From the IMG/VR virus record IMGVR_UViG_3300044911_001419, positions 1 to 33,189 of that record: a stretch of DNA of 33,189 nucleotides, one strand, 5' to 3'. Position 1 is the stretch's first letter. Each line of letters opens with the position of its first letter. The notes beneath the pieces are model-generated. The model was given only the letters and a program-made list of their open reading frames with translations, was not told the origin of the DNA and made no database searches. The DNA is from a virus. This document shows, piece by piece, positions 3,859-13,565 of the stretch. A program made the position numbers and the translations under genes.

Positions 3859-4193
3859 GCCCACCCCTTCCTGCGCGAAGCCTCTAGCGTCCTGTACAAT
3901 TCCAGAGTCAGCGTCGCCCGCATTCTTTTGGCCTTGAGTAGCTCAAGATCAAAATATGCCGCTTCCAGCTTTTCCAGCGCCGCCCGGTAATCCAGCGAAG
4001 TACCAGCCAGTGCCTGTCGTTCCGCCACTGTCCCCTCCGAAGCCAGAAAGGCACTGTCCCGCGCGACTTTTGCACCAGCCTCTGCCGCCTCGCGGCTGGC
4101 CATTGCTCGCGCATACGCCTCCTCGCTTTCTTCCAGGTAACGCAGCGCACGGCCTGCATGGGACTCATCCGGCAGCCCGCCTATCGCCTTCAT
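3855..4193 (-). CDS. hypothetical helical protein
   Basis: 112 residues from ATG 4193 (ATGA overlap with the methyltransferase-like gene); a GTG seven codons earlier is possible but less likely. The sequence is rich in Ala, Glu, Arg and Leu and should be almost entirely helical, with heptad-like stretches (YLEESEEAYARAMASREAAE and LEKLEAAYFDLELLKAKRMR) that suggest a coiled coil. There is no motif for catalysis or metal binding. It lies in the coupled early-left operon between a methyltransferase-like and a zinc-finger gene. Function unknown. Confidence 0.6.
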   Translation of the reverse strand: MKAIGGLPDESHAGRALRYLEESEEAYARAMASREAAEAGAKVARDSAFLASEGTVAERQALAGTSLDYRAALEKLEAAYFDLELLKAKRMRATLTLELYRTLEASRRKGWA

Positions 4194-4774
4194 GCAATCA
4201 ACCTCGGCTGCCACGCGCTACTACCCCACTGTTCGGCCATCGCTTCCGCAATCCCCTGAAATGTGCGGCTGCGCTCTTTCCACCTGTCAGGGCCGGGCGG
4301 CATCATGTGAATTCTTTGCGCCCTGCCGGGGACTATGTTTGTCGGGACAAGCGGCGGCAGGCCTTGCAGCCAAAGGCACGTTGCTTTGCATTCGCCGTGG
4401 CCGAATTGCCATGGCTGAATCACCTGGTCGGCGGGGCGTATTGCGCTGCCAATCACGCTTACGGGGTTCTCAATGGCTATGCGCTCAATGGGCGACAGCA
4501 TCAGCGTGCGCACGAATTCCAGTGACTCGCGCTGTAGTTCGCGCTTTTCGGAAAACCACCGCGCGCCGGAAACGGCCAAGTGCTGGCAACTGGGGTGGGC
4601 GACCATCAAGTCCCATCCGCCAGCCAGAATGTCGCGCACGTCGCCCTGGTAATGCGGCCCCGGCTTTTCCGTGGGCTGCAAGTCGCAGGACATGGCGTCA
4701 TGTCCACGGCGAATGAACGCATCCCGCACGGCCCCGGAAAACTCACACGCCACCAGCACGCGCAGCGGCCTCAT
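4190..4774 (-). CDS. divergent cytosine-methyltransferase-like protein
   Basis: 194 residues; ATG 4774 gives ATGA overlap with the Dcm-type gene upstream. The N-terminus RVLVACEFSGAVRDAF resembles a SAM-binding motif I, followed by an acidic position after the second strand (SCDLQP, D31) and GDVRDIL. A motif at 59-70 (AHPSCQHLAVSG) places a cysteine (C63) where C5 methyltransferases have PCQ, and IAIENP at about 117-122 recalls the ENV motif. The protein is shorter than real C5 enzymes and has no clear target-recognition domain. It could be a reduced methyltransferase, a different nucleotide-modifying enzyme or an inactive relative. Confidence 0.6.
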   Translation of the reverse strand: MRPLRVLVACEFSGAVRDAFIRRGHDAMSCDLQPTEKPGPHYQGDVRDILAGGWDLMVAHPSCQHLAVSGARWFSEKRELQRESLEFVRTLMLSPIERIAIENPVSVIGSAIRPADQVIQPWQFGHGECKATCLWLQGLPPLVPTNIVPGRAQRIHMMPPGPDRWKERSRTFQGIAEAMAEQWGSSAWQPRLIA

Positions 4775-5550
4775 GCCGCGCTCACGATTGCTCGCCCGAG
4801 GATTTCCGCGATTTGCGGGACGATGGCATTGCCGAGGCATCTAAGGCGGTCCAGTCTCGCGGGAACCCCATCATCCACTCCCATTCCCACGGGTGAATCT
4901 TCTGCTTTCCAAACGCCGTCCCACGGTAAGGGTTGAGACTCCCGCCCAGCTCCCGCCATGTGAAACCACAATGCGACGACCCCGCGTTCGGCGTATACAG
5001 CATTGCCATTCGCCGGCATCCCGCATGCTTCATCATTGATGGCGACAGCTGGTTCGCCGCTCGGGTTGGAGTCGGCAACAATCCAAACCCTGTCCCGCTC
5101 ATGAGGCGCACCAACGGCTGAAGCCGGTATGCAGTGCCATTCCGCATCAAACCCGAGCGCGGCCAGGTCTCCGAGAACTGTTGAAAGCCCTCGAGAAAGC
5201 ATCTCTGAGGAGTTCTCCACGATGACGTAACGCGGTCGTACTTCGCCAATGACTCGCGCGTATTCGCGCCACAGTCCAGAGCGAGCGCCGGTAATGCCAA
5301 ACTTCCGTCCTGCGCTGCTGATGTCCTGGCAGGGAAATCCGCCGCAGAGAACATCGATAGCTGGCGGGTTTCGGATGTTTCGGATGTCCCCGAGGTTGGG
5401 AACGCCAGGCCAATGCTTTCGAAGCACCGCGCTTGCATAGGCGTCAATTTCGGACTGCCAAACGATTTCCATTCCTGCGCGCTCGAGTCCAAGGTCAAAC
5501 CCCCCTATTCCGCTGAACAAGCTGCCCACCGTTAATTTTTTCGCACTCAT
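4771..5550 (-). CDS. DNA (cytosine-5-)-methyltransferase
   Basis: 259 residues, ATG 5550. Motif I is SLFSGIGGFDLGLERAG (10-26), motif IV has the catalytic cysteine in GGFPCQDIS (C74), motif VI is VENS (111-114, normally ENV), motif VIII is HERDRVWIVA (150-159), and motif X is CLGNAIVPQIAEILGRAI near the C-terminus. The target-recognition region between VIII and X is short, as in other small phage enzymes. It transfers a methyl group from SAM to cytosine in double-stranded DNA, most likely protecting phage DNA from restriction or adjusting expression. The start overlaps a 121-aa ORF by ATGA. A long second frame overlaps almost the whole gene (see 4782-5498). Confidence 0.93.
   Translation of the reverse strand: MSAKKLTVGSLFSGIGGFDLGLERAGMEIVWQSEIDAYASAVLRKHWPGVPNLGDIRNIRNPPAIDVLCGGFPCQDISSAGRKFGITGARSGLWREYARVIGEVRPRYVIVENSSEMLSRGLSTVLGDLAALGFDAEWHCIPASAVGAPHERDRVWIVADSNPSGEPAVAINDEACGMPANGNAVYAERGVVALWFHMAGAGRESQPLPWDGVWKAEDSPVGMGVDDGVPARLDRLRCLGNAIVPQIAEILGRAIVSAA
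4782..5498 (-). CDS. candidate gene overprinted on the methyltransferase
   Basis: A 238-codon frame on the same strand runs inside the methyltransferase gene in another frame; the best in-frame start is TTG 5498. Unlike usual shadow frames, the product contains segments I recognise as recurring in annotated phage proteins: FSETWPRSGLMRNGTAY, GLLPTPTRA, and EWMMGFPRDWTALDASA near the end. I recall such proteins being listed as methyltransferase-associated phage proteins. Either the family truly is encoded in the second frame, or databases hold translations of the wrong frame. Expression is not shown by the sequence: the start is weak and there is no clear Shine-Dalgarno. Confidence 0.4.
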   Translation of the reverse strand: MTLDSSAQEWKSFGSPKLTPMQARCFESIGLAFPTSGTSETSETRQLSMFSAADFPARTSAAQDGSLALPALALDCGANTRESLAKYDRVTSSWRTPQRCFLEGFQQFSETWPRSGLMRNGTAYRLQPLVRLMSGTGFGLLPTPTRAANQLSPSMMKHAGCRRMAMLYTPNAGSSHCGFTWRELGGSLNPYRGTAFGKQKIHPWEWEWMMGFPRDWTALDASAMPSSRKSRKSSGEQS

Positions 5551-7365: not shown

Positions 7366-7557
7366 TTATTTGAGAATCAGGACCGCGATCACTGCGGCCC
7401 ACACCAACAGCCCCGCTGGCACAGCAAGGCCGACACCGATAAAAAAGCCCGCAACATCCTCACGGGCAGGGTTCTCTAGGGGAGAACGGGGAGGATCAAA
7501 CTCAGGCGCAACGCTCATCACGTTGAGCGCCGCGATGTGGCTGCGGCAGCGGCTCAC
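7366..7557 (-). CDS. small single-pass membrane protein
   Basis: 63 residues from GTG 7557, whose GTGA overlaps the stop of the Cro-like gene; ATG 7518 would give 50 residues. A polar, proline-rich N-terminus (FDPPRSPLENPAREDV) precedes one hydrophobic C-terminal segment of about 26 residues (AGFFIGVGLAVPAGLLVWAA and on). It should insert in the inner membrane. Early-operon membrane peptides of temperate phages often affect superinfection or host physiology, but nothing here shows that directly. A terminator-like hairpin is embedded in its coding sequence. Confidence 0.55.
   Translation of the reverse strand: MSRCRSHIAALNVMSVAPEFDPPRSPLENPAREDVAGFFIGVGLAVPAGLLVWAAVIAVLILK
7441..7467 (-). terminator. 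intragenic terminator-like hairpin, leftward
   Basis: Read leftward, GCCCG (complement of 7463-7467), an 11-nt loop and CGGGC (complement of 7447-7451) are followed by six T (complement of 7441-7446). The stem is only 5 bp with a long loop, so it is weaker than the others. It lies about 300 bp downstream of the early-left promoter, where lambdoid phages have their first early terminator. It could attenuate replication-gene expression, or it may simply be coding sequence. Confidence 0.35.
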
Positions 7558-7763
7558 GCTGCGCGCTCGCCAAACACGTCAGGGCGAAGCTCGGCAGCGG
7601 TTACTGCGCCGCCTGTCGCCTTCTCAATGCGAATCGCGTTTTCGGCGCTGACTTTCGTGGCGCAACGCAGCCACTGGGAAACCGCGCCCTGCGTGCGCCC
7701 GATTCGCCGCGCAAATTCGGTTTGCGTCAGGCCCGAAGCCTGCAAGTAATCTGGTAGGTTCAT
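7554..7763 (-). CDS. Cro-like (YdaS-type) regulator
   Basis: 69 residues from ATG 7763. LPDYLQASGLTQTEFARRIG, then TQGAVSQWL, is a Cro-type HTH, and ENAIRIEKATGGAVTAAELRPDVF is the typical end of YdaS-family proteins. It is the first gene of the early-left transcript and is divergent from the repressor gene, the position of Cro. It would bind the TAGC-N5-GCTA operators and oppose or limit repressor. The start lies only 8 bp from the predicted -10, so its mRNA may be almost leaderless. Confidence 0.85.
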   Translation of the reverse strand: MNLPDYLQASGLTQTEFARRIGRTQGAVSQWLRCATKVSAENAIRIEKATGGAVTAAELRPDVFGERAA

Positions 7764-7771
7764 GGCCCCAA

Positions 7772-7799
7772 ATAGTAGCAGGCTGGTAACCGGAAGCAA
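7772..7799 (-). promoter_or_regulatory. early-left promoter
   Basis: Minus strand: -35 TTGCTT (7799-7794), 16-bp spacer, -10 TACTAT (7777-7772). One 13-bp operator (7776-7788) covers the -10 edge and spacer, and the other (7800-7812) abuts the -35. This matches the arrangement at the rightward promoter 8473-8501. Matches to sigma70 are modest (3/6 and 4/6), but the shared geometry makes the call stronger. Confidence 0.6.
7776..7788. promoter_or_regulatory. operator 1 (TAGC-N5-GCTA family)
   Basis: TAGCAGGCTGGTA: half-sites TAGC and GGTA separated by 5 bp, one mismatch from a perfect inverted repeat. It lies in the spacer and -10 of the early-left promoter, so binding there should block Cro-like gene transcription. 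Confidence 0.65.
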
Positions 7800-7812
7800 T
7801 AGCTGGCTGCTA
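7800..7812. promoter_or_regulatory. operator 2 (TAGC-N5-GCTA family)
   Basis: TAGCTGGCTGCTA: perfect TAGC/GCTA half-sites with a 5-bp spacer, 24 bp from operator 1 and immediately upstream of the leftward -35. It is also about 35-45 bp upstream of the repressor ATG, where it could control repressor expression. Confidence 0.7.
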
Positions 7813-7845
7813 GTCTTTGGGCGGATTTTTTCCTAGCGTTGCGCC

Positions 7846-8286
7846 ATGGATAGAAAGCCAAAGCGAACAATCACGGAGGCCGACGAACTGGCCGCCGAAG
7901 AATTAAAGAAAATCTGGGACAGGAAGCGCCAGGAACTGAGCCTGACTCAAGAAAAAGCGGCGCAGCAATTCGGCGGCACGCAGGGGTTAATCAGCCAGTA
8001 TCTGCTCGGCCGAATCGCCCTGGGCCGCATTGCGACCCTTAAATTCGCCCGAATTCTGCAAGTCGCCCCGGAGGAAATCCGTCCCGACTTTGAATATTCC
8101 GCAGTCCTGCCCGACGACATGCCCGCCGACGTGATCCGCATGGCGTACCAGCTGGCCGCCATGCCCGAAATCATGCGCCGTGACATCGAGCGCACGATTA
8201 ACCTTTATTCGGCCGCCAAAAATTACCCGGCATTTCTGCAAAAGCTGGAATTGGCAGAGCCACGAAAACCCGCCAAAAATACCTAA
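7846..8286 (+). CDS. CI-like repressor without cleavage domain
   Basis: 146 residues, ATG 7846, divergent from the Cro-like gene. An XRE-type HTH is at about residues 33-60 (LTQEKAAQQFGGTQGLISQYL). The C-terminal 80 residues are helical (MPADVIRMAYQLAAMPEIMR) with no S24/LexA peptidase serine-lysine dyad, and the protein is far shorter than lambda CI. It should maintain lysogeny by binding the operators on both sides of its gene. Without autocleavage it cannot be inactivated by the classical RecA route. No Shine-Dalgarno is visible, so the mRNA may be leaderless, as for lambda cI from PRM. Confidence 0.85.
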   Translation: MDRKPKRTITEADELAAEELKKIWDRKRQELSLTQEKAAQQFGGTQGLISQYLLGRIALGRIATLKFARILQVAPEEIRPDFEYSAVLPDDMPADVIRMAYQLAAMPEIMRRDIERTINLYSAAKNYPAFLQKLELAEPRKPAKNT

Positions 8287-8293
8287 TCAATTT

Positions 8294-8313
8294 CCGCGCA
8301 TTTTCGTGCGCGG
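8294..8313. terminator. hairpin after repressor gene
   Basis: CCGCGCA (8294-8300), a 6-nt loop, then TGCGCGG (8307-8313), starting 7 bp after the repressor stop. There is no T tract directly behind it. A second, AT-only inverted repeat (8322-8342, nine-base arms around CCG) follows. They may protect the 3' end or help termination. Confidence 0.45.
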
Positions 8314-8394
8314 AGTCACGGAAAATAAAACCGTTTTATTTTTCGCGCCGTTCATCTGCGCCGCGGTAGTGTCGCGTCACTTTTGCCAGCGCAA

Positions 8395-8420
8395 AAAAGG
8401 TACAGCCCCGCGTACCTTTT
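8395..8420. terminator. bidirectional terminator-like hairpin
   Basis: AAAAGGTAC (8395-8403) pairs with GTACCTTTT (8412-8420) around an 8-nt loop, giving A and T tracts on both flanks. It would end the repressor transcript and isolate it from the rightward promoter 50 bp further on. The 8287-8539 gap holds no gene: only this hairpin, those at 8294-8342, and the operator/promoter cluster. Confidence 0.6.
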
Positions 8421-8459
8421 AAACCCCGCTTTATTCCATTCCACTCACCTGAAAAGTTC

Positions 8460-8472
8460 TAACAGCCTGCTA
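8460..8472. promoter_or_regulatory. operator 3 (TAGC-N5-GCTA family)
   Basis: TAACAGCCTGCTA: 12 of 13 bases equal the reverse complement of operator 1. It ends at the base before the -35 of the rightward promoter, as operator 2 does at the leftward promoter. Confidence 0.65.
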
Positions 8473-8501
8473 TTGCTGCCGGATTAGCAGCACGCTATTA
8501 T
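8473..8501 (+). promoter_or_regulatory. early-right promoter
   Basis: -35 TTGCTG (8473-8478), 17-bp spacer, -10 TATTAT (8496-8501, 5 of 6 to consensus). The start point would be near 8508, about 30 nt before the ATG at 8540, which has GGGAGG 4 nt upstream. Operators 3 and 4 overlap or abut it. Confidence 0.75.
8485..8497. promoter_or_regulatory. operator 4 (TAGC-N5-GCTA family)
   Basis: TAGCAGCACGCTA: perfect TAGC/GCTA half-sites with a 5-bp spacer, 25 bp from operator 3. It overlaps the spacer and first bases of the -10, so bound repressor should exclude RNA polymerase. Confidence 0.7.
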
Positions 8502-8539
8502 GTCCCCACAAGCCGCACAACGCGGCAACGGGAGGCGAA

Positions 8540-8932
8540 ATGAACCACCTAGACCTAATCCGCGAACACTGCGCCGGCCAGCAATGGGATGAAGCCCCAT
8601 TCGCCACGCAGGACGAAATTCTGAGCCAGTACCTGCGCGACGAAGGCTTCGACGTCCTCGTGGCCGGCTGCCCTGAACACCGCATGCAGCACGTTTTCCG
8701 CGACCTGCTGGCCGACATGCTGGAAAAGCGCAGTGCGCCTGTCGCCGACTTCGCGGCCGCCGGTCGGGCGTTTGCCGCCGCCGCCTACAGCTTGGCCCGC
8801 GCTGAAGCCGAATTCGTGGTCGAGCAGTTGTGGGACGACGCCCGCGACGACTACTGGGCAGAACACGGCGATCCGGATGCGCACTACCTGCTTTCCGTTG
8901 ACGGGCGCGCCCGACTGGAAGGTGTGCAGTGA
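8540..8932 (+). CDS. hypothetical acidic protein, first gene of early-right operon
   Basis: 130 residues with a strong GGGAGG ribosome-binding site. The sequence is acidic and mostly helical: LRDEGFDVLVAGCPEHRMQ, then FRDLLADMLEKRSAPVADF and AEAEFVVEQLWDDARDDYW. I recognise no domain. Being the first gene transcribed when repression is lifted from the rightward promoter, it may act early in the lysis/lysogeny choice or against host functions. Those are guesses from position. There is no signal peptide or membrane segment. Confidence 0.75.
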   Translation: MNHLDLIREHCAGQQWDEAPFATQDEILSQYLRDEGFDVLVAGCPEHRMQHVFRDLLADMLEKRSAPVADFAAAGRAFAAAAYSLARAEAEFVVEQLWDDARDDYWAEHGDPDAHYLLSVDGRARLEGVQ

Positions 8933-9254: not shown

Positions 9255-9396
9255 GCCAGATGAACTGCCGCGCGGCGACGAACCCGAATATCGCGACTGG
9301 CTGGACGACTTGGACTTCGAAGTGCTGGATTGCGTCGAAGTCGAGGTGGAATACACAGAATTACTAGATGGAGGACGAGATGTTTTCGACTTCTGA
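9247..9396 (+). CDS. very small acidic protein
   Basis: 49 residues, ATG 9247, overlapping the previous gene by 8 bp and the ERF gene by 17 bp. Roughly a third of residues are Asp or Glu (DELPRGDEPEYRDWLDDLD, EVEVEYTELLDGG). There is no recognisable domain. Tight nesting between two coupled genes and a normal start support it being translated. Small acidic early proteins of phages sometimes inhibit DNA-binding host enzymes; that is only a possibility here. Confidence 0.5.
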   Translation: MTEPDELPRGDEPEYRDWLDDLDFEVLDCVEVEVEYTELLDGGRDVFDF

Positions 9397-10132
9397 ACAG
9401 ACTGAAAAGCTTGATGCCGCGCTGGCCAAAGCGCAGGGCGAAATCGAGCCGGCCGCGAAGGACAAGGTTAACCCTGCCTTTCGCTCCAAGTATGCCGACT
9501 TGTCGTCGGTGTGGAGCGCCTGCCGCGCAGCACTGGCAAAGCACAACATCACGCTGACGCAGTGGCCGCTGCACTCCGATGACGGTCGCTTGCACCTCAT
9601 CACCCGGCTGGCTCACGGCGGCCAGTGGATGCAGGCCGAAATGTCGATACCAGTCGGCAAGCCTGACGCGCACGGCTACGGCTCGGCCATGACATACGCC
9701 AAGCGTTATTCACTGGCCGCAGCCATTGGTGTCGTCGCTGACGACGACGACGACGGCAACGCTGCCAGTCAGCCGCGCAACGACATTCAGCCGACACGCG
9801 ACGTGTACGGCGAACTCATGAAGGCCGTAGACAGCAACGACGGCTGGCATGTCCTCGAGATTGCCGCAGACCAGCCGGCCTTTCGGCTGGCTTACGGGCG
9901 GCTTACGGGCAAGCAGAAAACGGCCTGCAAGGAATTGGAGCAGAAAGCCGCGTCGGCTCGCTTCGACTACTGCAACAACTTGGCTGACTACGCCGGCACT
10001 GGCGACGAACTGGGCACGCAGCAGTTGCTTGCGGAACTGGGCGAGAACGCCAGGGCAAAGCAAATGGTGTGGGAACAGTTGGGTTCCGCGACGAAGGCAT
10101 ACATCAAGAATCTGAAGAAAGAGGCGGCATAA
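9380..10132 (+). CDS. erf: ERF-family ssDNA-annealing protein
   Basis: 250 residues. ATG 9380 is chosen because GGAGG lies 5 nt upstream; an ATG four codons earlier overlaps that site. The N-terminal domain has the ERF pattern: KLDAALAKAQGEIEPAAKD, then NPAFRSKYADLSSVWSACR, and the signature GYGSAMTYAKRYSLAAAIGV at about 104-123. An Asp-rich linker follows, then a helical C-terminus (AYIKNLKKEAA). ERF proteins form rings that anneal complementary single strands in phage recombination and repair. The SSB-like gene directly downstream fits this role. Confidence 0.92.
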   Translation: MFSTSEQTEKLDAALAKAQGEIEPAAKDKVNPAFRSKYADLSSVWSACRAALAKHNITLTQWPLHSDDGRLHLITRLAHGGQWMQAEMSIPVGKPDAHGYGSAMTYAKRYSLAAAIGVVADDDDDGNAASQPRNDIQPTRDVYGELMKAVDSNDGWHVLEIAADQPAFRLAYGRLTGKQKTACKELEQKAASARFDYCNNLADYAGTGDELGTQQLLAELGENARAKQMVWEQLGSATKAYIKNLKKEAA

Positions 10133-10387
10133 ATGGCATACGAGCAACGCGACAACTCCGGCGCGCTTTTCCGGAACGACAGGAAGGAAAAGGAAAGCCA
10201 CCCGGACTACCAGGGCAATGCGCTTATCGGCGGCGTTGAGTACTACATCAGCGCGTGGCTGAAGGACGGCAAGAAAGGCAAATTCTTTTCGTTTTCGTTT
10301 AAGCGCAAGGACGACACCGGAAGGCAGGGAGTGCAGCAGGCCCGCGCCGCAGTTGAGGACGATTTCGGCGACGACATTCCGTTCTGA
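10133..10387 (+). CDS. SSB-like protein with DDIPF tail
   Basis: 84 residues; ATG follows the ERF stop directly (TAA-ATG). The N-terminal part (SGALFRNDRKEKESHPDY, then GGVEYYISAWLKDGKKGKFF) belongs to a small phage family with a DUF736-like, probably OB-like beta sheet. The end EDDFGDDIPF is the acidic tip found in bacterial SSB proteins, which recruits partner enzymes. Together with ERF upstream it probably coats single-stranded DNA for annealing. It is shorter than normal SSB, so it may be a partner-recruiting relative. Confidence 0.7.
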   Translation: MAYEQRDNSGALFRNDRKEKESHPDYQGNALIGGVEYYISAWLKDGKKGKFFSFSFKRKDDTGRQGVQQARAAVEDDFGDDIPF

Positions 10388-11138: not shown

Positions 11139-11458
11139 TAGACGACGAAACAATCAATCGTTGGCGGGCCAATTATGGATTGGTCGAGCGCAATCCGATT
11201 CAGGCCGCGCAATTCTGGGAGATGACTAACGGCGGCATGGCACCGGCCGGCGCAGTCGCGGCCCTTGGCATATGCCTGGACGAACTTGCGGAAATGCACG
11301 CCGAACTCGCCGAGGCGCGGCGGGAGCGGGACAGGCTGCGGGAGGCGATTGATAACGGGCCATGCTCGTGCTTGTGGACGCGCGAAGGCAGAGTTTGTGA
11401 CGAAAGCGAGCGGCCAAAAACTTGTTGGAAGCGCGCCGCATTGGAGGGTAAGCCGTGA
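11135..11458 (+). CDS. hypothetical coiled-coil protein
   Basis: 107 residues from GTG 11135 (GTGA overlap). After an N-terminal part (RWRANYGLVERNPIQAAQFW) comes a coiled-coil-like segment DELAEMHAELAEARRERDRL and a cysteine-containing end (CSCLWTREGRVC, then C at the following turn), with C-terminus ALEGKP. The coil shares sequence with genes at 11455 and 11859, including a 24-bp identical DNA stretch with the latter. It is one of a series of small proteins with the same C-terminal and junction sequence. Confidence 0.6.
   Translation: MIDDETINRWRANYGLVERNPIQAAQFWEMTNGGMAPAGAVAALGICLDELAEMHAELAEARRERDRLREAIDNGPCSCLWTREGRVCDESERPKTCWKRAALEGKP
11300..11323 (+). repeat. 24-bp direct repeat, copy 1
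   Basis: 24 bases beginning GCCGAACTCGCCGAG are identical to 12006-12029; both encode AELAEARR in the same frame. A shorter version (GCCGAACTCGCCGAGCAG) occurs near 11632. The repeats mark a shared coiled-coil module in three neighbouring genes. Confidence 0.85.
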
Positions 11459-11862
11459 GCAGGGAAATGGATGTAGTGCGCTTGGGCGGAGACGAGTACG
11501 ACGCCCTCGTCGACGAGCGCGACCGGTTGCGGGCCGAGGTTGCCGCACTGGCCGCGAAGGATGCGGAGATAGCCACGCTGGAATGCCAAGCAGGCTTTGC
11601 CCTTGTTCGCGCTGAGACTGCCGAAGCCCGCGCCGAACTCGCCGAGCAGGAAGCGATGGGGCTGCGGGAAATGGTGGACTCAACCAAGGTCGCAGCATGG
11701 GACAAGTGCGCCGAGATTATTCGTCGGGCACAGGCCGCAGAGGCCGAGCGTGATGCACTGCGGGATGTGTTAGAGGAAGTCTTGGCTGATGCAGAAGAAA
11801 GCATTTCCATTTGCCCGCTGACGAAAGCCAAAGCCCGTGCCGTATTGGAGGGTAAGTCGTGA
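11455..11862 (+). CDS. hypothetical coiled-coil protein
   Basis: 135 residues from GTG 11455 (GTGA overlap). Nearly the whole protein is helical: EYDALVDERDRLRAEVAALA, then ARAELAEQEAMGLREMVD and AAEAERDALRDVLEEVLADA. It ends AVLEGKS, like the AALEGKP end of the preceding gene. The ribosome-binding site of each gene is built into this LEGK codon run. It could serve as an assembly or scaffold-type early protein; no function can be assigned. Confidence 0.6.
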   Translation: MSREMDVVRLGGDEYDALVDERDRLRAEVAALAAKDAEIATLECQAGFALVRAETAEARAELAEQEAMGLREMVDSTKVAAWDKCAEIIRRAQAAEAERDALRDVLEEVLADAEESISICPLTKAKARAVLEGKS

Positions 11863-12116
11863 GCGATACAGAGATGACGCTTGAGGAAGCAGAGCGCTCG
11901 TCCGCGCTACTTGCTGCAAACACCCTGCTCCACGCTTTAGGCTGGAGTTACGGTGGACTGCATGCGATGGCCTGCGAAATCGTTTCGCAGCGCGACGCTC
12001 TCCGTGCCGAACTCGCCGAGGCGCGGCGGCAGTTGGAAGCGTTGAAGGCGCGTCAATTCAAGCCGTATCCGGACGGGCCAATGCCGGGTCCGTTTGGGTG
12101 GGAAATCAAATCATGA
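11859..12116 (+). CDS. hypothetical coiled-coil protein
   Basis: 85 residues from GTG 11859, preceded by the GGAGGGTAAG junction. The N-terminus (TLEEAERSSALLAANTLLHA) is helical. The middle coil QRDALRAELAEARRQLEALK shares 24 identical bases with the gene at 11135. The end is proline-rich (YPDGPMPGPFGWE). It is the last of three related small genes and probably arose by duplication and recombination among them. Confidence 0.6.
   Translation: MSDTEMTLEEAERSSALLAANTLLHALGWSYGGLHAMACEIVSQRDALRAELAEARRQLEALKARQFKPYPDGPMPGPFGWEIKS
12006..12029 (+). repeat. 24-bp direct repeat, copy 2
   Basis: Identical to 11300-11323. It lies in the coiled-coil part of a different gene and keeps the same reading frame. 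Confidence 0.85.
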
Positions 12117-12436: not shown

Positions 12437-12798
12437 GCGCCCTGCTCACCGCCGCCCAGGTCGCGCAACAGTGGCAATGCAGCGTCCGCACCGTCCACCG
12501 CTTGGTGGATGCCGGCCAGCTTGCCGCAGTGCAGTTAGGACAGTCCGCCAAATCACGACGATTTGACCCCGTGGAAATTGCCCGCTACGTTGCGGCAGGG
12601 AGGGAAATATGCCAATACGGAAAAGAGGCGACGGCTGGCAGGTGGACGTACAGGCCCACGGGAAGCGCGCTCGATGCACTGTTAGCACCAAAGCGGCGGC
12701 CATCGAACTCGAAAGGAAAGTCCGCGACGACCTTGAGCGCGAAAAATACGGACTCAGGCCGAATCGTACCCTTGAAGATGCCCTTGAAGAGTATCTGA
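12433..12798 (+). CDS. xis: excisionase-like HTH protein (Xis)
   Basis: 121 residues from ATG 12433. Residues 1-58 form a MerR-type winged helix of the excisionase kind: LLTAAQVAQQWQCSVRTVHR, then LVDAGQLAAVQLGQ and RRFDPVEIARYVAAG. Such proteins bend attachment-site DNA and direct integrase toward excision. The reading frame continues for about 60 further residues inside the integrase gene (190-bp overlap), giving a basic, low-complexity tail. The tail may be spurious or a genuine second use of the DNA. Coupling to integrase is tight. Confidence 0.75.
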   Translation: MSALLTAAQVAQQWQCSVRTVHRLVDAGQLAAVQLGQSAKSRRFDPVEIARYVAAGREICQYGKEATAGRWTYRPTGSALDALLAPKRRPSNSKGKSATTLSAKNTDSGRIVPLKMPLKSI

Positions 12799-13565
12799 CG
12801 ACCACGGCGCGGGCGCTGAAATCCTATGAGTCGCTGCTATACGTCGCTCGGGTTATCCGGCCATTTCTCAGTCGTCCCTTGGATCGTATATCCGACGCAG
12901 CTTCGGACATCATCCGGGACGGGCAGGCTCAGAATCGAGCACCGGCCACAGTCAACCGGCACCTGGCCCTGCTCCGTCGTCTCGGCAAGCTGGCCTACCA
13001 GTGGGGGTGGACTGACAAGCAGTTGGGCGGGCGCGTCGTGCTGCTGACTGAGAACAACGAGCGCCACCTGTACCTTACCCCGGCCCAGGTTGCCCAAATA
13101 GCCTCCCACGCCGATTCTGAGGCCCTACGGGACGCGATATGGCTGGCCGCTACCACGGGCCTGCGTAGAGGCGAGCTGCTCGCCCTGCGGCCTGAGAATT
13201 ACCGCGACGGAGCCTTGTGGCTGTCGACGTCCAAGTCCGGCAGGCCGCGCCGCGTCCCTGTGCCTGTTGACGCCCGAGACGTCTGCGAGCGCCTGCCCTT
13301 GAAGATAACCGCCGTCGCTTTACGGAGGGGCTTCGAGCGGGCCAGAAAGAAAGCCGGCATGGAGGGCGTCCACTTCCACGACCTTCGGCATACGTTTGCG
13401 TCGTGGGCCATTGCGGCCGGCGTGGACCTTCGGTTGCTCAAGGATTTGATGGGCCATTCGACCATGCAGATGACCAGCCGGTATGCCCACCTCGAGGACC
13501 GCCAGTTGACGGCGGCGATTGGAAAGATGGCGCGAAAGCGCGCGACGCCTGCGAGACGCGGGTAG
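12609..13565 (+). CDS. int: tyrosine-family site-specific integrase
   Basis: 318 residues, ATG 12609, preceded by GGGAGGGAA. An N-terminal arm-binding part (PIRKRGDGWQVDVQAHGKR) and SAM-like core domain (YLTTTARALKSYESL) are followed by the catalytic domain with R186 (TGLRRGE), K209 (STSKSGRP), H257-x2-R260 (HDLRHTF), H283 (LMGHSTMQM) and nucleophile Y292 (RYAHL). It recombines attP with attB and, with Xis, reverses this. The att site is 77 bp downstream, the usual arrangement for tRNA-integrating phages. Confidence 0.95.
   Translation: MPIRKRGDGWQVDVQAHGKRARCTVSTKAAAIELERKVRDDLEREKYGLRPNRTLEDALEEYLTTTARALKSYESLLYVARVIRPFLSRPLDRISDAASDIIRDGQAQNRAPATVNRHLALLRRLGKLAYQWGWTDKQLGGRVVLLTENNERHLYLTPAQVAQIASHADSEALRDAIWLAATTGLRRGELLALRPENYRDGALWLSTSKSGRPRRVPVPVDARDVCERLPLKITAVALRRGFERARKKAGMEGVHFHDLRHTFASWAIAAGVDLRLLKDLMGHSTMQMTSRYAHLEDRQLTAAIGKMARKRATPARRG

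Follow-up and report, generated by a model that had tools for sequence, protein, structure and literature searches.

In this virus, a CI-like repressor gene and the two gaps beside it very probably make up a lambda-style switch region through which a temperate phage decides between lysis and lysogeny; repressor and Cro would act on shared operators at both early promoters (probability about 0.92). The window, that is, the whole stretch of DNA analyzed, covers one virus record, 33,189 bases long, with 61% G+C. A sequence-only reading had proposed a genetic switch here, with the repressor and a Cro-like protein as predicted binders at early-left and early-right promoters, and the anatomy of the region, the homologies of its proteins and the comparison with relatives give this prediction strong support. 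Computation established the sites and how they are arranged, the order of the genes, the protein homologies and the fact that other phages conserve the layout.

Anatomy of the proposed immunity region

The cro-like and cI-like genes diverge from a gap that holds the sites at 7776 and 7800. Beyond cI lies a second operator/promoter (8460, 8485), which reads into ERF, SSB and integrase. The order is Cro (leftward), PR/OR, CI (rightward), a candidate terminator, OL/PL and a rightward recombination/integration operon (erf, ssb, int). In lambda terms, this layout points to the left gap as OR/PR and the right gap as OL/PL. Left of cro are a DUF1376 replication-type gene, a C5 methylase and a terminase. 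The genes and hairpins are as follows:

7554-7763, minus strand: Cro-like protein, 69 aa, with an HTH of YdaS / P22-Cro / Xfaso1-Cro type (Pfam, PHROG and PDB matches)
7846-8286, plus strand: CI-like repressor, 146 aa, with a lambda-CI-type N-terminal DNA-binding domain and a short C-terminal part
8319-8345, no strand: inverted repeat CGGAAAATAAAAC/GTTTTATTTTTCG, candidate terminator past the repressor (RNA fold -9.3 kcal/mol)
8395-8420, no strand: hairpin AAAAGGTAC...GTACCTTTT, resembling a bidirectional terminator (RNA fold -10.9 kcal/mol)
8540-8932, plus strand: first open reading frame of the predicted PL operon, 130 aa, no family
9368-10132: ERF, downstream of the 130-aa frame
10133-10387: SSB, downstream of the same frame
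12609-13565: integrase, also downstream of it

Both hairpins are located where HK620 has its annotated tIMM, and the one at 8395-8420 is a candidate for insulating repressor transcription from PL. Two further observations concern the flanking operons. The C5 cytosine DNA methylase gene of the cro-side operon is at 4771-5550 (Pfam, 4e-44), and positions 11299-12030 contain several 21-30 nt near-identical stretches in common with two related loci (L085/L112), which suggests that this part of the early operon is repetitive.

The operator sites and predicted promoter elements are given below; the latter were read from the sequence, and the -10 elements were assigned by consensus.

7772-7777, minus strand: predicted -10 of PR, TACTAT (7777-7772)
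7776-7788, no strand: OR1-like site TAGCAGGCTGGTA, one mismatch to TAGC-N5-GCTA, over the spacer and -10 edge
7794-7799, minus strand: predicted -35 of PR, TTGCTT (7799-7794), directly adjoining the site at 7800
7800-7812, no strand: OR2-like site TAGCTGGCTGCTA, exact TAGC-N5-GCTA, adjoining the PR -35
7834-7846, no strand: weak candidate for a third site, TAGCGTTGCGCCA, where the repressor gene starts, over a possible PRM -10
8460-8472, no strand: OL2-like site TAACAGCCTGCTA, one mismatch to TAGC-N5-GCTA, adjoining the PL -35
8473-8478, plus strand: predicted -35 of PL, TTGCTG
8485-8497, no strand: OL1-like site TAGCAGCACGCTA, exact TAGC-N5-GCTA, over the spacer and -10 edge
8496-8501, plus strand: predicted -10 of PL, TATTAT, with a predicted start at ~8508

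All four sites were found where the sequence-only reading had placed them, and its 24-25 bp between sites corresponds to 24 bp in the left gap (7776/7800) and 25 bp in the right (8460/8485). The reading had described four TAGC-N5-GCTA sites; those at 7800 and 8485 are exact, but those at 7776 and 8460 each deviate by one mismatch. Read on the minus strand, the left-gap sites are TACCAGCCTGCTA and TAGCAGCCAGCTA, and the right-gap sites are TAACAGCCTGCTA and TAGCAGCACGCTA. A fuller, near-complete palindrome, TAGCAG-C-CTGCTA, is a better consensus than TAGC-N5-GCTA. Allowing up to 2 of 12 mismatches to TAGCAGNCTGCTA, we found four matches in the 33,189 bp, which were the four sites and no others. 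With TAGC-N5-GCTA at up to one mismatch, the window had 13 matches versus ~7 expected from shuffles, and nine of these were outside the four sites. Thus, confinement of the sites to the two gaps is true of exact sites and of TAGCAGNCTGCTA at this stringency, but not of the looser pattern.

The mirror geometry of the two gaps is beyond chance, as had been argued. When the left gap was reverse-complemented, it aligned with the right gap along 43 columns at a score of 25, whereas no score above 16 was seen in 5,000 dinucleotide shuffles. Shuffled windows contained 0.04 close pairs (≤40 bp) each, and none of 300 contained two or more. Chance is therefore excluded as the source of the arrangement.

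Each pair appears to be built into an outward-facing, sigma-70-like promoter with a spacer of 16 bp (left) or 17 bp (right). At each of them, one site adjoins the -35 and the other spans the spacer and the first two bases of the -10, exactly as described earlier for both gaps. Neither PR nor PL was listed by a generic promoter scanner in the window; the -35 hexamers are weak, and both promoters were omitted because TTGCTT and TTGCTG fall below the scanner threshold. The cro ATG (7763) is 12 nt past the second site and only ~2 nt from the predicted PR start, and the cro mRNA is therefore probably leaderless. At the extreme 5' end of the predicted PL transcript there is a hairpin, GCCGC-ACAAC-GCGGC (8512-8526; leader -9.8 kcal/mol), and a hairpin-like repeat just past PL was also seen in other loci with paired TAGC-type sites.

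On the repressor side of the left gap, a possible PRM -10 (TAGCGT, 7834-7839) is followed by six bases and the repressor ATG. There are two clear sites per gap in the window, with no clear third (OR3) site and no strong PRM. A perfect third site occurs in the related locus L038 (at 4877, equivalent to 7834 in the window), and several more distant relatives have one over the repressor promoter, which lines up with OR1-OR3 of HK620. However, the nearest relative (L085/L317) lacks a third site, and for this reason 7834 was not taken as a firm OR3. The repressor gene has no obvious Shine-Dalgarno sequence. The lambda cI mRNA is leaderless, and by analogy with it, PaaR2 and PY54 cI/cro, the repressor mRNA could also be leaderless.

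Repressor, Cro and the proposed mechanism

The Cro-like protein matched Pfam YdaS_toxin (2e-17) and P22_Cro (2e-6) as well as PHROG 35 transcriptional repressor (3e-20). Its best solved relative is Xylella Xfaso1 Cro (PDB 3bd1, 1.4e-8), and it is homologous both to this protein and to YdaS of CP-933P. In the repressor, the first ~80 residues align with lambda CI (phmmer; 3kz3, E=2.4e-6; 1lmb, E=7e-6), and HTH_31 was the sole Pfam family found. Searches of the 146-aa protein against Pfam and PHROGs gave no match to an S24 peptidase domain, only the HTH being recognized, and an AlphaFold single-sequence model of the repressor (pLDDT 49) was too poor for reading the fold of the C-terminal domain. 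The protein fits a class of short CI-like repressors of PaaR2/RacR type, with a CI-like N-terminal domain, a short non-peptidase C-terminal domain and a YdaS-type Cro partner.

The recognition-helix residues TQG..SQ are common to the HTHs of Cro and the repressor. In the alignment with lambda CI, Gln33 and Gln44 are conserved and Ser45 and Asn55 are substituted; the operator contacts of these residues in lambda CI are known. This pattern would fit an operator with A at position 2 and divergence further in, although it is only suggestive. We also observed that the HTH regions of cro (7687-7732) and the repressor (7940-7985) are 72% complementary over 46 nt, that is, alike in sense orientation, which suggests common descent or gene conversion holding both proteins to one operator.

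From these features we infer that both promoters are active, that both proteins bind, that binding is cooperative, that the repressor activates its own gene and that Cro antagonizes it. In a lysogen, dimers of the 146-aa repressor would occupy two sites spaced by ~25 bp at each of two outward early promoters, of which PR would read to cro and the replication genes and PL to erf, ssb and int. Because the sites adjoin the -35 and cover the spacer and -10, bound repressor is proposed to block RNA polymerase directly. When bound to 7800-7812, the protein would be centered ~40 bp upstream of the repressor ATG, at which a leaderless transcript may start, and so placed to activate its own weak promoter. 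Once the phage infects or is induced, Cro (69 aa), translated from a near-leaderless mRNA, would compete for the same sites and stop repressor synthesis. Since the repressor has no recognized peptidase domain, RecA-driven self-cleavage is not expected as inducer, and induction may follow another route.

Paired TAGC-type sites in other phages

We defined a TAGC-Nk-GCTA pair class as a TAGC-N3/5-GCTA site beside a -35 TTG, with a second site starting ~25 bp on. The window belongs to this class with one mismatch in one site of each pair. Scans of IMG/VR with the pattern TAGC-N3/5-GCTATTG-N~10-TAGC-N3/5-GCTA detected at least 120 stretches for the 11-bp (N3) form and at least 120 for the 13-bp (N5) form, versus one for a composition-matched control; these matches are not all independent, as a cluster with one 252-aa repressor recurs. 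Among the matches listed, the two sites started 25 bp apart in 103 of 149 (N3) and 104 of 128 (N5) cases, there were 116 (N3) and 109 (N5) distinct cores, and in many loci the first start codon was 10-12 nt past the second site. When a locus among these matches had two separate pairs, they faced outward (32/32) and never inward, mostly around a CI-like gene; two seeming same-strand cases were one palindromic pair matching both strands. Half-site and geometry were shared by many phage contigs, among them relatives of Pseudomonas phages and of enterobacterial lambdoid phages.

Although the loci were fetched by DNA pattern alone, a homologue of the window repressor was present in 37 of the 120 N3 loci among the matches listed, and 33 of 38 such homologue matches were within 1 kb of a pair (39% under random placement). 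In contrast, none of the 120 N5 loci among these matches had a repressor of the window type, and N5 sites often occurred with other repressors. The pairing of the window repressor with 13-bp sites is therefore one of position alone, and the phage may be a spacing variant. An IMG/VR protein search with the single repressor as query gave no match; the operator pattern, which did recover homologues, is for that reason the better probe. A genome-contig search with two Cro proteins yielded four loci only, and a seven-member Cro alignment was too heterogeneous as a query.

Paired TAGC-type repeats were found at the promoters of Cro relatives, and two outward-facing pairs ~25 bp apart surround a CI-like gene in L317/L085, reached via the operator pattern, and in L002 and L038, reached via Cro. 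With many more loci from the IMG/VR scans, this bears out the sequence-only reading, which had pointed to relatives as the place to look for such sites. The best repressor match was the group L085/L112/L317 (integrase region 71% identical in DNA, repressor 44%), in which the repressor is flanked by exact sites, 2420/2445 and 3082/3107, in the same places as in the window. L002, whose Cro is ~55% identical, has exactly four perfect TAGC-N2/3-GCTA sites in 10 kb, at 4454/4479 and 4954/4978 on either side of the CI gene, and in L038 sites of TAGCAATGCTA type occur at 4091/4116 and 4877/4912/4937. A close-pair search (combined mismatches ≤1) across the loci then collected returned essentially immunity regions only.

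These comparisons bear on two alternatives. The inverted likeness of the gaps over 43 columns would be expected if one promoter region had simply been duplicated, with the palindromes as by-products of no regulatory use. We regard this as very improbable, since these half-sites recur at 25-bp spacing in other phages around many different cores (116 and 109 among the matches listed), and the four sites of L317 differ among themselves in sequence yet keep perfect half-sites, as selection for binding predicts. Even less credible is that the palindromes are RNA hairpins or host-factor sites, to which inverted repeats close to transcription starts might have pointed: the sites lie upstream of the predicted starts, arms of only 4 bp are too short to form a useful RNA stem, and such palindromes adjoin phage repressors in many unrelated contigs. 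Pure duplication and RNA hairpins were rejected on upstream position, short arms and recurrence with varied cores, and operators for the phage's own regulators remain our preferred reading.

Some loci showed additional features. L004 has a three-site operator before cro (TAGCGATGCTA / AAGCATGGCTT / TAGCAGTGCTA at 4933, 4958 and 4981, in steps of 23-25 bp) and a further pair at 1169/1194. In L209, L224, L227 and similar N5 loci, a lambda-like motif, ATCAGCAGGACGC, directly follows the 13-bp-type OL sites; it is also present just past pL in HK620. These N5 loci are thus mosaics that join a PL leader of lambda type to operators of another class.

Known switches and the place of this operator

With lambda and HK620, the window shares gene order, promoter directions, operators within both early promoters, a CI-type N-terminal domain, a site spacing of ~24-25 bp and a terminator after cI; on the annotated HK620 map the order is the same, successive OR sites begin at intervals of 24-25 bp, and a terminator separates cI from OL. 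However, these phages have three 17-bp sites per operator and the window two clear 13-bp TAGC-type sites, and, unlike theirs, the window repressor has no self-cleaving peptidase domain and its Cro is of YdaS type.

By analogy, PaaR2/YdaS of CP-933P, a prophage of E. coli O157:H7, is the nearest experimental precedent (PMC8630535). It shares a short CI-like repressor without peptidase, a YdaS-type Cro, OR between the two genes and a second operator copy at PL past the repressor locus. Binding of PaaR2, which lacks a peptidase domain, and YdaS to shared or overlapping OR sites was measured; both repress PR and PL, the PL promoter has the same hexamers and operators, low PaaR2 activates PRM and YdaS represses it (PMC8630535). 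The systems differ in that the CP-933P cI-like gene heads a toxin-antitoxin operon, whereas the window repressor stands alone, and in that its 18-bp sites (half-site GTTTAGTAA) form four repeats instead of two 13-bp sites per promoter.

RacR/YdaS of Rac (PMC5700373, PMC11014345) and Rac-SA53 (KU052037) also have their genes side by side. Their repressor and that of the window are homologous at the N-terminus (49% across the HTH region), Cro is 41% identical, and the Rac repeats TTAGGC/GCCTAA have a TTAG-type half-site in common with the window, but operator sequence and repeat number differ and the prophage is defective in K-12. RacR has an octamer-forming C-terminal domain, unlike that of CI (PMC11014345). 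N15 and phiKO2 have three OR and two OL sites in their CB(CI)-Cro regions, and leaderless cI and cro mRNAs were mapped in PY54 (PMC4488713); N15, phiKO2 and PY54 differ from the window in their 16-bp operators and in an OL that serves a replication gene.

PY54 Cro binds a single operator (PMC4488713), and by this example the operators of the window might be real but bound at all four sites by one protein only, repressor or Cro, or Cro might bind at one site. The slight differences among the four sites, the 11-bp sites of the repressor relatives and the frequent occurrence of N5 sites with other repressors are consistent with such an arrangement. Nevertheless, we consider it unlikely, in view of the recognition-helix residues shared by Cro and the repressor and of the related PaaR2/YdaS pair, which binds overlapping sites and of which both members repress PL. 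Binding of both proteins to shared operators is the reading we prefer.

The earlier description of the operator as apparently new has to be revised. It is not new as a kind: at least hundreds of contigs share a TAGC half-site that is fused to the -35 (GCTATTG) and sites spaced by ~25 bp, and studied switches (CP-933P, Rac, N15) have the same design. Given this widespread geometry and a relative with four exact sites, the window operator is best seen as a spacing variant of a common class, which is widespread but apparently little-described. What distinguishes it is the precise 13-bp sequence, as the nearest repressor relatives use 11-bp (N3) sites. This sequence had no match in the literature searched for TAGC/GCTA operators; the LfsT motif NAACN(5,8)GTTN is unrelated. 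A broader and tentative idea, which we hold to be somewhat doubtful, is that of a large unnamed class of lambda-like switches with a TAGC half-site fused to the -35 and 11- and 13-bp forms alternating among close relatives, within which a CI-type repressor of the 11-bp class would have moved to 13-bp sites in this phage, with non-RecA induction.

The analysis provides a testable map of the immunity region of an uncultivated temperate phage, and the pair pattern is a DNA-only detector of lysis-lysogeny switches in other phages, judging from its at least 120 stretches per form against one in the control. The difference in half-site spacing between close relatives, whose repressors are 44% identical, may offer a handle on how operator specificity and superinfection immunity diverge.
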